Shown here piece by piece: positions 33,490 to 41,707 of a stretch of DNA of 64,000 nt (position 1 is the first letter of the stretch; every line of letters begins with the position of its first letter). The stretch comes from Chloroflexota bacterium (GTDB lineage Bacteria > Chloroflexota > UBA11872 > UBA12225 > JAJDUF01), in the NCBI GenBank assembly GCA_022826725.1, contig JAJDUF010000011.1, forward strand, positions 222,891-286,890, given 5' to 3'. Both the position numbers and the translations under genes were made by a program. Under the pieces are notes generated by a model. It searched no databases. It was given only the letters and a program-made list of their open reading frames with translations, and had not been told where the DNA came from.

Positions 33490-33849
33490 CTACTTGGCTT
33501 GCGCGATAAGCTCCTGGATACGCTTGGCGCTGTAGCCGACACTCAGCTCGTTGCCAATGGTGATGACCGGTCGGCGCCAGAGGCCCGGCTCGGCGGCTAG
33601 CAACTGGATCAAGGTGTCGTCGTCGGGGAGCTGCTCGCGGAGGTTCAGTTCACGCGCCTTGGCGCTGCGTAGGGAGACGACCTCGCGGGGAGACCGCTCA
33701 CCGAGCAGCGTCCGCACTTCCGCTTCGGTCAGCGGCTCGCGGAATAGCTCGCGGCTCCGGTACGGGACACCGGCTTGCGAAAGCGCCGCTTTCGCCTTTG
33801 TGCAGCTTGTTCAGCTCTGCCGGTGGTAGAAGTTGATCTCGTTACTCAC
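33490..33849 (-). CDS. Spx/ArsC-family protein with in-frame UGA, probable selenoprotein (UxxC)
   Basis: Read with the UGA at 33813-33811 as selenocysteine, this is a complete 119-aa thioredoxin-fold protein. It starts at GTG 33849 with GGAGA five bases upstream: MSNEINFYHRQS-U-TSC-TKAKAALS. U13 falls exactly on the first Cys of the CxxC of Spx (CTSCRKA) and on the catalytic Cys of ArsC. The rest is typical: REPLTEAEVRTLL, the SLRSAKARELNL helix, then GLWRRPVITIGNELSVGYS with the family's R-P turn. A SECIS-like hairpin follows the UGA. It lies 30 bases behind glmS on the same strand. Role: either a reductase or a Spx-type RNA polymerase-binding redox regulator. Without recoding only 12 residues, or a start at 33717 without the motif, would be made. 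Confidence 0.85.
33777..33813 (-). promoter_or_regulatory. Bacterial SECIS-like element after the UGA codon
   Basis: On the minus strand, after UGA 33813-33811, a perfect 8-bp stem (GCGAAAGC/GCTTTCGC, 33795-33788 with 33784-33777) closes a GGC loop (33787-33785). Exactly 23 bases separate the UGA from the loop, and the loop starts with G. Known bacterial SECIS elements have a loop guanine about 16-37 bases after UGA and are read by SelB. It also encodes protein (AKAALSQ), as in other bacterial selenoprotein genes. Confidence 0.75.
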
Positions 33850-33879: not shown

Positions 33880-35772
33880 TTATTTAACGGTGACGGACTT
33901 GGCGAGGTTGCGGGGCTTATCCGGGTTCAACCCGCGCTCGATTGCCAAGTGGTAGGCCAACAGCTGCGCCGGGACGACGCTCACAATCGGCGAGGCGTAG
34001 CCAACGTCGGGGACATGCACATACTCGTCGAATACATCCTCTCGCTCCGGACCGATGCCGATGATCGTCGCGCCGCGGCTCCGCATCTCGATGGCGTTGG
34101 AGAGCACCGCGGCGCGGCTGCGGTCCTGCGCGGCAAACACGATGCAGGGAGTACCGTCTTCGATCAGCGCGATGACCCCGTGCTTCAGCTCACCGCCGGC
34201 AAAGCCCTCGGCGTGGATATATGACGTTTCCTTGATTTTCAGCGCGGCTTCGAGTGCGGTGGGATAGTTGACATCGCGTCCGATGGTAAAGAGATGCTCG
34301 TGAGCGGCAAGCTCCCCCGCCAGTCTGCGGAGCTGTTTGTCCAAACCGTTGGAGAACAAGTCCGAAAGGGCCACGCTGGCCTGCTGCAAGACGGCCCGGC
34401 CCGGCGCCTGCTCGCCGGCGACGGTATACGCTAGGAGCAAGAAGACACCCAGCTTGGCGGTGTACGCCTTGGTGCTCACGACGGCCTTCTCCGGCCCGGC
34501 ATAGAGGTCCAGCACATAGTCGGCGAGCCGCGTGAGCGAGGACCCGGGCACGTTGACGAGCGCCATCACCTGGCTGTCGTGGCGCTTAGCCGCGCGCACG
34601 GCCTCGATAGTGTCCATCGTCTCGCCGGACTGCGAGGCGGCGACCAGCAGCGATTCCGGGACCAGAAAGTCCTCCAGAAAATAGAACTCGGAGCCGACGG
34701 CAAAGTTCACGTGCTTGCGGGCCAGGTGCGAGAAGAGATAGGTCGCTTCCAGCGCGGCGTAGGAGGCGGTGCCGCAGGCCGTGAAGTAGGTGCCGAAGGC
34801 GCGCTCGATCATGGCGGCGGCTGTGCTGATGGGCGCTGCGGGGTAGGCGGCAATCCGCGCCAGCACTTCTGCCTGTTCGTGAATCTCCTTGAGCATGAAG
34901 TGGGGATACGCGCCCTTGTCTGCGACGGGCGGCGGCGTGGTACATGCCGAGTGTGTCCAAGGCGGGTCGGATTGTCGTGCTGACCCAAGGTGCCCATTCC
35001 GCCGGGTGCTGAAATGCTGCTGCTTGAGCGTGTCGCTTCGTGCGTCGAGGCGCACCGGCGGCTGATCGAGCGTGAGCAGAGCGCCCTCGCCATCGTCGAG
35101 CAGCAGCACGCGATCCGTGTAGGCGCTCAAGGCCGGCAGGTCGGACGACACGAGTGCCGCGACGCCGTTCAGTCCCACCGCGAGCGGCGAGCCAAGTCGA
35201 AACAGTGCCAAGCTCGCCGCTTCCGTTGACCCGACGACGATGGCGTTCAGGCCGTGCAGCTGCCGGAAGGCACGATGCACGGCAGCGGCAAAGTCGCTCG
35301 GCGCGTAGTCCGGCGTGTCATTCGCACTCGCCAGCTCCTCCTCGACGAGGTGCGCGACGACCTCGGTGTCCGTGTCGGAGGTGAAGCGATGCCCTCGGTC
35401 CAGGAGCTGTTGCTTGAGCGACTGGTAGTTCTCGATGATGCCGTTATGGACGACGACGATGGAGCCGGTGCAATCGAGGTGCGGGTGCGCGTTGGCGACG
35501 GTCACGCCGCCGTGAGTGGCCCAGCGCGTGTGACCGATCCCGATGCTGCCGGGCAGCTGACTGCGCCCGACCTTGGTGGCGAGCTGACCAACCGGGCCGA
35601 CCTCCTTGAACAGCGGGAGACCGTTTGGCGGTTGACCGGCATGTCCATTGCGATCCAGCACTGCGAAGCCCGCCGAGTCATAGCCGCGGTACTCCAGACG
35701 CTCCAACCCTTCGAGAAAGAAGGTCGCCAGGTTGTCTTGCCGCTCGCCAACGTAGCCGAGAATTCCACACAT
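33880..35772 (-). CDS. glmS: Glutamine-fructose-6-phosphate aminotransferase
   Basis: It makes glucosamine-6-phosphate from fructose-6-phosphate and glutamine, the first step to UDP-GlcNAc. The 630-aa product begins MCGILGYVG with the N-terminal nucleophile Cys, then RLEYRGYDSAG, GHTRWATHG and HNGIIENY of the glutaminase domain (1-240). Two SIS isomerase domains follow (about 310-450 and 480-620: FTACGTASYAALEATYL, ASQSGETMDT, EGFAGGELKHG). It ends in NLAKSVTVK as usual. The linker near residues 225-290 is longer than normal. No glmS ribozyme was recognised upstream. The Spx/ArsC selenoprotein gene follows 30 bases downstream. Confidence 0.97.
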   Translation of the reverse strand: MCGILGYVGERQDNLATFFLEGLERLEYRGYDSAGFAVLDRNGHAGQPPNGLPLFKEVGPVGQLATKVGRSQLPGSIGIGHTRWATHGGVTVANAHPHLDCTGSIVVVHNGIIENYQSLKQQLLDRGHRFTSDTDTEVVAHLVEEELASANDTPDYAPSDFAAAVHRAFRQLHGLNAIVVGSTEAASLALFRLGSPLAVGLNGVAALVSSDLPALSAYTDRVLLLDDGEGALLTLDQPPVRLDARSDTLKQQHFSTRRNGHLGSARQSDPPWTHSACTTPPPVADKGAYPHFMLKEIHEQAEVLARIAAYPAAPISTAAAMIERAFGTYFTACGTASYAALEATYLFSHLARKHVNFAVGSEFYFLEDFLVPESLLVAASQSGETMDTIEAVRAAKRHDSQVMALVNVPGSSLTRLADYVLDLYAGPEKAVVSTKAYTAKLGVFLLLAYTVAGEQAPGRAVLQQASVALSDLFSNGLDKQLRRLAGELAAHEHLFTIGRDVNYPTALEAALKIKETSYIHAEGFAGGELKHGVIALIEDGTPCIVFAAQDRSRAAVLSNAIEMRSRGATIIGIGPEREDVFDEYVHVPDVGYASPIVSVVPAQLLAYHLAIERGLNPDKPRNLAKSVTVK

Positions 35773-37574: not shown

Positions 37575-37994
37575 TCAGCTATGGGTTGTGGAAGGGTCGT
37601 ATAGTCCGCGTGGAGGGGTGTACTCTTCGATCACGATGTCCTCAGCCGGGGCTGGGGCGAGCGACGGGTCGTCCATGTATTTGGCGGCCTCATCGAGCAG
37701 CTGATTCAACTCCGACGCGGCGTCGGGGCCGAGGGCACGTTGCGTTTTGAGCAGGCGCTGGAGCACGTCGCAGGCGCGGCCGACGGCGGCGATCTGCTGA
37801 AACAGGACGGAGCGTTGCCAGCGCCGGCCGGCACCGCCGCGCCGCCGGCCGCGGGGTTGCGCCCGGTCGGGTTGCAGGGCCAGGACCCGCCCAATGAGCA
37901 CCTGCAGCACACGGATCTCGCCATCGAGCACTGGTGCGGAGGCGGCTGCCAGCAGTGCCTGGACTTCAGCGGCGGTGAACAATCGGTCGTACAC
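37575..37994 (-). CDS. Small basic-acidic protein, unknown function
   Basis: GTG 37994 is chosen because a perfect AGGAGGG lies four bases upstream. The 139-aa product starts MYDRLFTAAEVQALLAAA, has helices LDGEIRVLQVLIGRVLAL and CDVLQRLLKTQRAL, a basic loop RGRRRGGAGRR in the centre and an acidic end (AEDIVIEEYTPP). The frame stays open upstream to 38480, but that part is a 75-base tandem repeat and would give a Pro/Ala-rich extension of about 160 residues. I do not recognise the family. The helical pattern and the start signal support a real gene. Confidence 0.65.
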   Translation of the reverse strand: MYDRLFTAAEVQALLAAASAPVLDGEIRVLQVLIGRVLALQPDRAQPRGRRRGGAGRRWQRSVLFQQIAAVGRACDVLQRLLKTQRALGPDAASELNQLLDEAAKYMDDPSLAPAPAEDIVIEEYTPPRGLYDPSTTHS

Positions 37995-38142
37995 AGTTCC
38001 CTCCTGGGTGATGGATTGGGTGACGGAGGCTGACGGTGACCCGGCGGCGACGGACACACGACGGGAGCAGTCGTGACCCAATGCCGGCGGGGGCGAGACG
38101 GGGGAGTAGTCGGGGGCCGCGGCGGCGGCAAGGGTGGCGTCG

Positions 38143-38440
38143 GAGCGGTTGTGCTCCGGCACCGGCTGGGCGGCACTCAGACGGTCGTGACGCGGAACTC
38201 TGGCCGTGATGGCAAGGGGTACGTCAGAACCCGGTGCCCTCGGGGCGGCACTCTGACAGTACTGACCCGGCGCCCGCGCTGAAGGAGCGCGGGGTATGTC
38301 AGCACCCGGTGCCGTAGCAGCGGCACTCAGGCGGCCATGCCGCGCCGCATCCGCAGACGCGGGGCGGGGTCGTTCATGACCCGGTGCCCTCGGCTGGGTG
38401 ACGATGCCACCGCTGTTGGCCGGCAAGATGCCAAGACCGC
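38143..38440. repeat. Degenerate tandem repeat, about four units of 75 bases
   Basis: Imperfect units begin near 38143, 38217, 38293 and 38368. Shared words are ACCCGGTGCC, GCGGCACTC and GGGTAYGTCAG. Seventy-five is a multiple of three, so a minus-strand frame stays open through the array as 25-residue Pro/Ala-rich units. There are no unique spacers, so this is not CRISPR. Confidence 0.65.
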
Positions 38441-38544
38441 TCCCGGCCTGTGCAGCGTGTGCGCTAGACCTGTCTCGCATCCGTCAGCCTCCGTTCAGGG
38501 GGGGATATTGACGGAGTGAGGCGGGACGCAACGGGGGGATTTGG

Positions 38545-38697: not shown

Positions 38698-39528
38698 CTA
38701 GGCGAAGGGGTTGCGGGCCTGTTCGTTGGCTATCGTCGTGGCGGGGCCGTGAGCCGGGAACACCGGCGTCTCCGGTGGCAGCCGCAGCAGCCGCTCCCGG
38801 ACGGACCGGAGAATGTCCTGGTAGGCCGCCGGTGAGCGCGTGCCCCCGGCCGAGCCGGCAAACATGGTGTCGCCGACGAACGCTGCCCCACCGATCAGGT
38901 AGGAGATGCTGCCCGGCGTGTGACCGGGTGTGAGGATGGCCTCTGCGGCTAATGATCCCCACGAGAGCTGCCGGTCGGTAGCTATGCGGTGGACCGCGTC
39001 CGACGGGACGTGCGCTGCGGCGCTGGCGTCCGCCGCGCCAATGTAGACCGGCGCCCCGGTGGCCCGCTGCACCTCGGTCAGGCCGCCGGTGTGGTCGCCG
39101 TGTCCGTGCGTAATGAGGATGGCCGCTACCCGCCAGCCCGTCTCGCGTAGCTTGGCCAGCAGCGGGCCGGCCTCCGTCCCGGTGTCTATGACGAGGCACG
39201 AGCCGTCCGCTGTCGCCACCAGGAAGCAATGCACCGGATACGGCAGCGTCACACACTCGATCCGGAGCGAGGCCAGCGGGCGGGTGGTCAATGGTACCGG
39301 CGGGGCGTCCCACGCCTCGGTCGCAATGTCCCAGAGGCGGTTGGCGGGCAGCGAGAAAAGCTCCGCGAAGCGCTCCACTTCGTCGCGGGTCGGCAGCCGC
39401 TCGTAGCTTTCCATGGCGGCCAGCGCAGCCTCGGTCGCGCCGACGGCCGACGCGACGGCGGTCGGGCTGAGGCCATGTCCCCGGCGAGCCTTCCCGATCA
39501 CGTCTCCGAACTCATCTTCTAGCGGCAT
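38698..39528 (-). CDS. HTH domain fused to MBL-fold (glyoxalase II-like) hydrolase
   Basis: The 276-aa protein has an N-terminal Xre-like helix-turn-helix (1-75: GKARRGHGLSPTAVASAVGATEAALAAMESYERLP). A metallo-beta-lactamase domain follows (about 95-270) with THGHGDHTGG (HxHxDH), ILTPGHTPGSISY, FVGDTMFAG and PAHGPATT. All metal ligands are visible. ATG 39528 has AAGGAG seven bases upstream; the longer frame to 39666 is repeat DNA. The fusion suggests a DNA-binding hydrolase or one regulated by DNA; the substrate may be a thioester. It is divergent from selB, sharing the 39529-39742 region. Confidence 0.85.
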   Translation of the reverse strand: MPLEDEFGDVIGKARRGHGLSPTAVASAVGATEAALAAMESYERLPTRDEVERFAELFSLPANRLWDIATEAWDAPPVPLTTRPLASLRIECVTLPYPVHCFLVATADGSCLVIDTGTEAGPLLAKLRETGWRVAAILITHGHGDHTGGLTEVQRATGAPVYIGAADASAAAHVPSDAVHRIATDRQLSWGSLAAEAILTPGHTPGSISYLIGGAAFVGDTMFAGSAGGTRSPAAYQDILRSVRERLLRLPPETPVFPAHGPATTIANEQARNPFA

Positions 39529-39562
39529 AGTGTGCTCCTTCTTTCGGCGTGGGTTGGACCTT

Positions 39563-39630
39563 ACCCTAGCCCCCCGGTGGCCCCCCCGCGAGCGGGGGGA
39601 CGGGGATTCCCGCTTGCGCGGGAATGACGG
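39563..39630 (+). repeat. Mosaic palindromic repeat (B + C types)
   Basis: CCCCCCGGTGGCCCCCCCGC with GAGCGGGGGGACGG, joined to a C-type palindrome ATTCCCGCTTGCGCGGGAAT and GACGG. It lies in the divergent region of the HTH-MBL and selB genes and is followed by short direct repeats GAGGGCTGATAGCT. Confidence 0.75.
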
Positions 39631-39724
39631 CCCTCGGCTGACGGTCTCCCGACTGACGGCTCCCAACTGATAGTTGAGGGCTGATAGCTGAGGGCTGACA
39701 GCCGAAAGCCGCTAGGAGTTCCCC

Positions 39725-39799: not shown

Positions 39800-41707
39800 A
39801 TGACACCATCGTCAGCTGCTGCGTATACCATCGGCACCGCCGGGCACGTTGACCACGGCAAGTCAACGTTGATTAGCGCGCTCACGGGCATTGACCCCGA
39901 CCGGCTGCGTGAGGAAAAAGAGCGCGGCATGACGATTGATCTCGGCTTTGCCTGGTTGCAGCTCCCGAGCGGCCGTGAGGTCAGCATCGTTGACGTGCCT
40001 GGGCACGAGCGCTTTGTCCACAACATGCTGGCCGGCGTCGGTGGGATTGATGCCGCCCTGGTCGTCATCGCTGCCGACGAGGGAGTGATGCCGCAGACCC
40101 GCGAGCACGTGGCCATCCTCGACCTGCTCGGCATCAGCCGGGCCGTCGTGGCCCTGACCAAATGCGACCTCGTGGACGAGGAGTGGCGCGAGCTGGTCCG
40201 CGAGGACCTCGCCGAGACCTTAGCCGGAACGGTGGTCGGCACGGCGCCGGTGGTCGAGGTCTCGGCGACGCAAGGGCGGGGTCTCGATGCGCTGGTGGCG
40301 CAGTTGGAGCAGCTGCTCGCCGATACGCCGCCGAAGCGTGACTTGGGGCATCCGCGCCTGCCCGTGGACCGCGTCTTTACGCTGGGCGGCTTTGGCACTG
40401 TCGTGACCGGGACGCTGCTGGATGGCGCCATTGACCTCGGGCAAGAACTGAAGATTCAGCCTGGCGGCCTGCGGACCCGCGCCCGTGGCCTGCAATCCCA
40501 TCAGTCGAAAGTTGATCGCGCCGATCCGGGCCGGCGCGTGGCGATCAATCTCGCCGGATTGGCGGTTGACGACCTGGAGCGCGGCGCCGTCGTCACGTCC
40601 CCCGACTGGCTGCAGCCAACCCAGCGCCTCGATGCTCGCTTGCAGCTGGTGGCCGACGCGCCGCGTCCCCTCAAGGGCGGCACCGCCGTCGCGCTGCACA
40701 TCGGCACCGCCGAGGTCGTCGGCAAGATCCGCCTCCTCGACGCGCCGGTACTGGAGCCGGGCGCTCAGGGTTGGGTACAGTTCACCCTCCAGGCGCCGGT
40801 AGCGGCCCTGAAAGGCGACTTGTTCATCATCCGGCAGCTTTCTCCCGCCGTCACCTGGGGAGGAGGCGAGATCGTAGACGTGCGGCCGACGCAGCGGCAT
40901 CGGCGCGGACGCCCGGAGGTGCTGACGGCGCTGGAAACCCTGGCTACCGGCGAGCCGGACGAGATCGTCTTGCAGACGCTGGCGCTCAGAGAGCCGCTCA
41001 CGCCGCCGACCCTCGCCCGGGCGAGCGGCCTGGCAACGAGTGTGGCGCAGGCGGCGCTGGCCCGTCTCCAGCAAGCGGGACAGGTCACGTCGCTCGGTGC
41101 CCTGCTGATGACGACGGACGGCTGGGAACGGGTACGTGAGCAGCTATTGAGCACCGTGCAGGCCTACCATGGGCAGTACCCGCTGCGGCGGGGGATGCCC
41201 CGCGAGGAGCTGCGGAGCCGCCGCCGGTTGCGGCCCCGCCAGTTTGCGGCCAGTTTGGACCGCCTGCTGGCGGCCGGTGAACTGGTGGAAGAGGAGGCGC
41301 TGGTCCGGACCGCTGGCCATGTGGTGCAACTCTCCCCGGCCGATGAGGCGACGGCCGCAGAGCTGCTCCGGCACTTGGCCGCCGCGCCGCGCTCGCCACC
41401 AGGTCTGGCCGAGCTACGTGGTACATTGACCGGCCTCTCCGATGACCTGCTCGACGCTTTGGCCGCACAGGAGCGCGTTATTCGTGTGAGCCAAGACGTA
41501 TGCTTCACGCCGGCAGCTTTTGACGACATGACCGCCATGGTGGTCGCCTACCTGCGGGAGCACGGCAGCATCACGGTCGCCGCGGCCCGCGACCTCTTCG
41601 GCACGAGCCGGCGGTATGTCCTCGCCTTGCTGGAGCAACTGGACCACCGGCGGGTCACGCGCCGGGTTGGCGATGAGCGCGTCCTGCTCCAACGCACGGA
41701 GGGGTAG
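39800..41707 (+). CDS. selB: Selenocysteine-specific elongation factor SelB
   Basis: A GTPase that brings Sec-tRNA to UGA codons by binding the SECIS hairpin. The 635-aa product has the G domain: IGTAGHVDHGKSTL (G1), the SelB-type GMTIDLGFAWL switch region, DVPGHERFV (G3) and TKCDLV (G4). Domains II-III follow (about 175-340), with LGGFGTVVTGTLLDGAI. The C-terminal half (about 370-635) is a series of winged-helix domains (DDMTAMVVAYLREHGSITVAAARDLF), which bind SECIS RNA. This clearly separates it from EF-Tu. ATG 39800 is used; ATG 39743 would add 19 basic residues. No selA, selD or tRNA-Sec gene was found in the window. Confidence 0.96.
   Translation: MTPSSAAAYTIGTAGHVDHGKSTLISALTGIDPDRLREEKERGMTIDLGFAWLQLPSGREVSIVDVPGHERFVHNMLAGVGGIDAALVVIAADEGVMPQTREHVAILDLLGISRAVVALTKCDLVDEEWRELVREDLAETLAGTVVGTAPVVEVSATQGRGLDALVAQLEQLLADTPPKRDLGHPRLPVDRVFTLGGFGTVVTGTLLDGAIDLGQELKIQPGGLRTRARGLQSHQSKVDRADPGRRVAINLAGLAVDDLERGAVVTSPDWLQPTQRLDARLQLVADAPRPLKGGTAVALHIGTAEVVGKIRLLDAPVLEPGAQGWVQFTLQAPVAALKGDLFIIRQLSPAVTWGGGEIVDVRPTQRHRRGRPEVLTALETLATGEPDEIVLQTLALREPLTPPTLARASGLATSVAQAALARLQQAGQVTSLGALLMTTDGWERVREQLLSTVQAYHGQYPLRRGMPREELRSRRRLRPRQFAASLDRLLAAGELVEEEALVRTAGHVVQLSPADEATAAELLRHLAAAPRSPPGLAELRGTLTGLSDDLLDALAAQERVIRVSQDVCFTPAAFDDMTAMVVAYLREHGSITVAAARDLFGTSRRYVLALLEQLDHRRVTRRVGDERVLLQRTEG

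Follow-up and report, generated by a model that had tools for sequence, protein, structure and literature searches.

Is the UGA codon that interrupts a short minus-strand gene of a Chloroflexota bacterium read as selenocysteine (Sec) and, if so, is the product a redox switch of the Spx type, an arsenate reductase or another kind of redox protein? The gene is found in the window analyzed here, a stretch of 64,000 nucleotides of contig JAJDUF010000011.1, and the original prediction held that it encodes a true selenoprotein in which Sec replaces the first Cys of the CxxC motif of the Spx/ArsC family. The gene and its elements are:

33490..33849, minus strand: predicted selenoprotein gene with a UxxC motif, Spx/ArsC fold group, 119 codons plus TAG
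33859-33856, minus strand: GGAG, a likely ribosome binding site judged from the sequence, 6 nt ahead of the GTG start
33813-33811, minus strand: in-frame TGA, codon 13, predicted Sec, the sole in-frame TGA of the gene
33802..33804, minus strand: TGC codon of Cys16, second residue of the UxxC pair and predicted resolving Cys
33777..33795, minus strand: predicted SECIS hairpin, nt 19-37 from the U of the UGA, with an 8-bp stem and the loop GGC (33787-33785)
33717-33715, minus strand: GTG used by gene callers as the start of a headless fragment (75-aa database proteins P0008-P0015)

The coordinates and the read-through translation bear out the description of an otherwise complete gene with a GTG start (33849-33847), a GGAG motif and a TAG stop (33492-33490), whose read-through product has 119 aa. 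When this product is aligned with Spx and ArsC, as the original prediction had proposed, the UGA falls, in the HMMER alignments, on the Cys that opens the Spx CxxC motif, exactly where it had been placed. The product matches PF03960 (ArsC) at 57.6 bits, above the gathering score of 24 bits, and its structure is predicted by AlphaFold2 with a pLDDT of 92 and a pTM of 0.81. At E <= 1e-3, the genome holds one match to the UxxC protein, which is the gene at 33490..33849 alone. A profile search returned 1129 proteins at E <= 1e-12; the best 120 of these 1129 are mostly full-length relatives and, where named, are called Spx/MgsR, ArsC or arsenate reductase. Each of the 15 close database proteins (E <= 1e-3; 75, 78, 93, 98 or 190 aa) starts 3' of the UGA, and nine of them, with 75 or 78 aa, start at or near GTG 33717-33715. 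Gene callers thus start where they had been expected to, at about 33717, and the close database entries contain the protein only in truncated form, lacking the active site. Such gene models, together with the standard code, in which UGA is a stop, are what would be seen if the UGA were an ordinary stop, that is, if the gene had decayed, if the TGA were a sequencing error or if translation of a short protein began at GTG 33717.

Comparison with relatives speaks against an ordinary stop. Among 400 evenly drawn Chloroflexota genomes, a homologue was found in 45 at a match limit of E <= 1e-6. The initial tally was 40 with one internal TGA and 5 without; after each site was read, the equivalent of codon 13 is TGA in 41 of the 45 genomes and Cys in 4 (G230, G294, G186 and G232). 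The initial count had placed G257 among those without TGA, because a frameshift hides its UTTC motif. This G257 sequence (L074) is a UGA form with UTTC in the neighbouring frame, and the apparent frameshift is either an assembly error or a sign of a decaying copy. Neither TAA nor TAG was seen at this codon in the 45 homologue-bearing genomes; random stop codons in relatives, named beforehand as a result that would count against a selenoprotein, were therefore looked for and not found, while the Cys homologues expected at the UGA site were. Further relatives from named records, with L007 left out, have UGA in 4 of 5 cases and Cys in 1 of 5. The identical TGA is found in relatives from separate assemblies, protein-level conservation is present both 5' and 3' of the UGA codon, and the second Cys of UxxC and the Arg93-Pro94 pair are each kept in 44/44 compared UGA sequences. 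The Cys form of G232 groups with E. coli ArsC in the tree. Reading of the UGA as Trp is disfavoured, as the homologues show Cys and not Trp at this site and the tRNA-Trp of the window has the anticodon CCA.

According to the excerpts of PMC1088965, the SECIS-type hairpin lies just 3' of the UGA and carries a G in a small apical loop. With the U of the UGA as nt 1, nt 19-26 of the window gene pair with nt 30-37 in 8/8 pairs, and the local stretch folds at -11.5 kcal/mol. Covariation was assessed in 28 UGA sequences (27 distinct), with family f3 left out, which had been split off after the folds of all 44 UGA sequences had been viewed. In these 28 sequences, 82.4% of stem cells are paired, compared with 67.4% in shuffles, and 28 cells have both sides changed, compared with 9.9 expected, a number reached in 0 of 500 shuffles. 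The best of the versions slid by 1-3 columns has 16 both-side-changed cells versus 28 in register, a comparison in which the register, taken from the window itself, is favoured over the slid versions. By the measure of pairs changed on both sides, the count is 5 versus 3.9, and 72 of 500 shuffles reached as many. The first loop position is G in 26/28 sequences. Six of the 28 (L008, L054, L064, L068, L041 and L073) form five or fewer of the eight pairs, and the stem formed by three of these, L008, L064 and L068, is one base off register. The five Cys forms have 5, 5, 5, 4 and 4 of the 8 pairs and fold locally at -3.3 to -8.7 kcal/mol, compared with -11.5 in the window.

Family f3 (16 UGA sequences, L044-L071) has another hairpin, AAGGCC-CGUGC-GGCCUU, which lies closer to the UGA at nt 16-32 and pairs nt 16-21 with nt 27-32 (6/6 pairs in 16/16 sequences). 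Its stem is almost invariant, and covariation therefore says little there. One protein family may thus possess two predicted SECIS types. The synonymous-codon folding-energy z-score is -0.01 for the window, with a mean of -0.57 in 44 sequences versus -0.22 in 88 control stretches; the dinucleotide-shuffle folding z-score is flat at -0.17, and RNAalifold over all 44 UGA sequences finds no common structure. The hairpin is not singled out by folding energy alone, and the flat z-scores are a further point on the side of an ordinary stop; the window gene fits the SECIS-type feature by covariation and by the loop G.

The genome (4.14 Mb, 23 contigs, 96.7% complete, 5.3% contamination) contains selA (559.9 bits), selD (369.9 bits; minus strand, 1405-2592 of L027, contig C21) and tRNA-Sec (74.5 bits, anticodon TCA), as well as selB (321.4 bits, 39830-41686), which is located in the window:

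39800..41689, plus strand: selB, Sec-specific elongation factor, TIGR00475 at 321.4 bits (above cut-off), with winged-helix domains PF09106 and PF09107

All components that the original prediction had asked to be confirmed are therefore in the genome, with selB in addition, and the absence of the machinery, which had been named as evidence to the contrary, is not the case. The selB and selenoprotein genes lie approximately 6 kb apart, on opposite strands; in the genus mate (L077), the distance is approximately 4.8 kb. The selD gene has an in-frame UGA of its own (ACAGUASK), so that SelD, too, is a predicted selenoprotein. Across the phylum sample, selA is above cut-off in 41/41 UGA genomes versus 320/400 genomes overall (Fisher p 1.1e-4, a value that ignores shared ancestry).

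The Cys-bearing genomes vary in this respect. G186 has TGC at the site, and neither selA nor tRNA-Sec was detected in its assembly, while its family mates G048 and G007, with UGA, both have selA and tRNA-Sec; the Cys form of G186 groups with the UGA forms of these two mates (support 88/91). The G186 assembly is only 80% complete, and the association of its Cys codon with the absence of detected Sec machinery is therefore just suggestive. Set against G048 and G007, G186 offers a natural Sec-to-Cys contrast: where neither selA nor tRNA-Sec is detected, the codon is Cys and the hairpin is weaker. The Cys forms of G230 and G232, by contrast, occur in genomes that have both selA and tRNA-Sec, and G294 has Cys and selA, with no tRNA-Sec match at E 1e-8.

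Because of the UGA conservation, the covarying SECIS-like hairpin, the Sec machinery, the co-occurrence with selA and the contrast offered by G186, the claim of a true selenoprotein is well supported, and the window protein is, from sequence comparison, almost certainly a selenoprotein. With UGA at the same codon in 41 genomes, no TAA or TAG there and protein-level conservation on both sides, an ordinary stop is hardly credible. We propose, with a probability of about 0.58, that the UGA is read as Sec and that the product is a UxxC thiol-selenol redox enzyme, not an RNA-polymerase-binding Spx.

The latter part of this proposal departs from the original prediction, which had drawn on the Spx redox switch on RNA polymerase. 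Spx chains are the best sequence matches of known structure (E about 3e-16), and Spx 1z3e is the top Foldseek match (E 2.2e-10, TM 0.83). Like Spx of Bacillota, the window protein has the ArsC fold with a redox pair near its N-terminus, here as UxxC at the CxxC position, and it keeps the equivalents of R60 (Arg in the window; R in 34 and K in 8 of 44 UGA sequences) and R92 (Arg in the window and in 44/44). These likenesses would suit a transcription regulator that senses redox state as Spx does, with a Sec-Cys bond as its switch instead of a disulfide and with an altered RNA-polymerase contact; a single unlinked gene would fit a regulator as well. Sec stands at Spx Cys10, however, and the residues of Spx that would make the contact are not kept. 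In Spx, Gly52 contacts alphaCTD, with Tyr263 on the alphaCTD side (PMC2801614, excerpts). The G52 equivalent is Ser in the window protein (Gly in 3/44 UGA sequences) and sits in a loop two residues shorter than in Spx, the K62 equivalent is Ala, and the Tyr263 equivalent in the RpoA of the genome, placed via the NCLK spacing, is Leu. The window protein has 119 aa, compared with 131-132 in Spx chains, and therefore has no C-terminal tail. In the tree, the three Spx references form their own starred clade apart from the UGA forms, and all Spx models score below cut-off: NF002459 (67.9/123 bits), TIGR01617 (65.4/75.05), NF009885 (42.5/152) and NF009210 (40/159). The protein thus probably does not make the RNA-polymerase contact of Spx, the Spx-type switch is not upheld and a regulator of this kind is, in our view, unlikely. 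A selenium version of the Spx switch in Chloroflexota, in which a Sec-Cys oxidant sensor influences gene expression by way of a contact surface shifted away from Gly52/Tyr263, seems more doubtful still. If the protein did regulate transcription, it would belong to the rare redox sensors based on selenium.

Arsenate reduction is the other function suggested by the family. A Sec-containing arsenate reductase of the ArsC type would agree with the ArsC fold and with the names under which the published selenoproteins of the family appear in the excerpts of PMC1088965 and PMC2398784. The anion site of ArsC is the part that differs. ArsC R60 is named in the PDB titles of the Foldseek matches. We take R94 and R107 to be the anion-site arginines alongside it. 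The window protein resembles ArsC, the glutaredoxin-type arsenate reductase, in fold, in the position of the nucleophile and in the R94 equivalent, and differs from it in that the second Cys is present while the equivalents of R60 (Ser in the window; Arg in 0/44 UGA sequences) and R107 (Tyr in the window) are missing, so that R94 is the only one of the three arginines kept. The ArsC model TIGR00014 reaches 33.7 bits against a cut-off of 106.05, and no ars gene is found among the 8 window neighbours and the 20 neighbours of relatives scanned. An arsenate reductase is therefore quite improbable. NF041106, named 'ArsC family (seleno)protein', shares the fold family and UxxC and is matched over residues 8-109, but at 51 bits it falls short of its cut-off of 85.

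By analogy, and from the Spx and ArsC residues that are missing, a redox enzyme that works on its own is the likely product. In our proposal, the SelB and tRNA-Sec of the genome likely insert Sec at the UGA (33813-33811) with the help of the predicted SECIS hairpin downstream. Sec13 would then attack an oxidised substrate, Cys16 would resolve the intermediate by forming a Sec-Cys bond, and the enzyme would be restored by a thioredoxin-type reductase.

The original prediction had left room for a Spx-type UxxC form to be new, which overstated the case. The available text of PMC1088965 lists 14 arsenate reductase selenoproteins (COG1393) from the Sargasso Sea, and that of the 2008 ocean survey (PMC2398784) lists 'Arsenate reductase (ArsC) 1' (UxxS, 77 sequences) and 'Arsenate reductase 2' (cd03032, UxxC, 42 sequences and 238 Cys homologues); cd03032 is given as ArsC_Spx in excerpts of PMC8755942. 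An arsenate reductase-like UxxC selenoprotein is also listed in parts of PMC9312934 and PMC13188914, the latter with NF041106. The word Spx is absent from PMC1088965, PMC2398784, PMC9312934 and PMC13188914. UxxC selenoproteins of the Spx/ArsC family are an already known kind, of which the window gene is a further member. 'Arsenate reductase 2' comes from ocean reads and has the subfamily label and the UxxC motif in common with the Chloroflexota clade. Among open-licence papers, none was found on the Chloroflexota forms. Assembled genomes across the phylum are now seen to carry this type of selenoprotein, which had been known mostly from reads of ocean DNA.

The gene neighbourhood was also compared, as a link to glmS had been claimed:

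33880..35772, minus strand: glmS-like gene with SIS and glutamine amidotransferase domains, 30 nt upstream, a neighbour in the genus

In the synteny comparison, this linkage is seen only in the genome of the window and in the one genus mate compared; the link therefore stands within the genus and is weaker than claimed. No fixed partner gene, arsenic-related or other, is found among the neighbouring genes scanned, 8 in the window and 20 in relatives. Elsewhere in the window, the minus strand encodes a metallo-beta-lactamase-fold protein with an N-terminal helix-turn-helix (38698-39666; PF13560 with PF00753) and a 301-aa open frame with no Pfam match (37575-38480), which has no counterpart in the corresponding stretch of the genus mate, where the two genes flanking this frame are approximately 100 bases apart.
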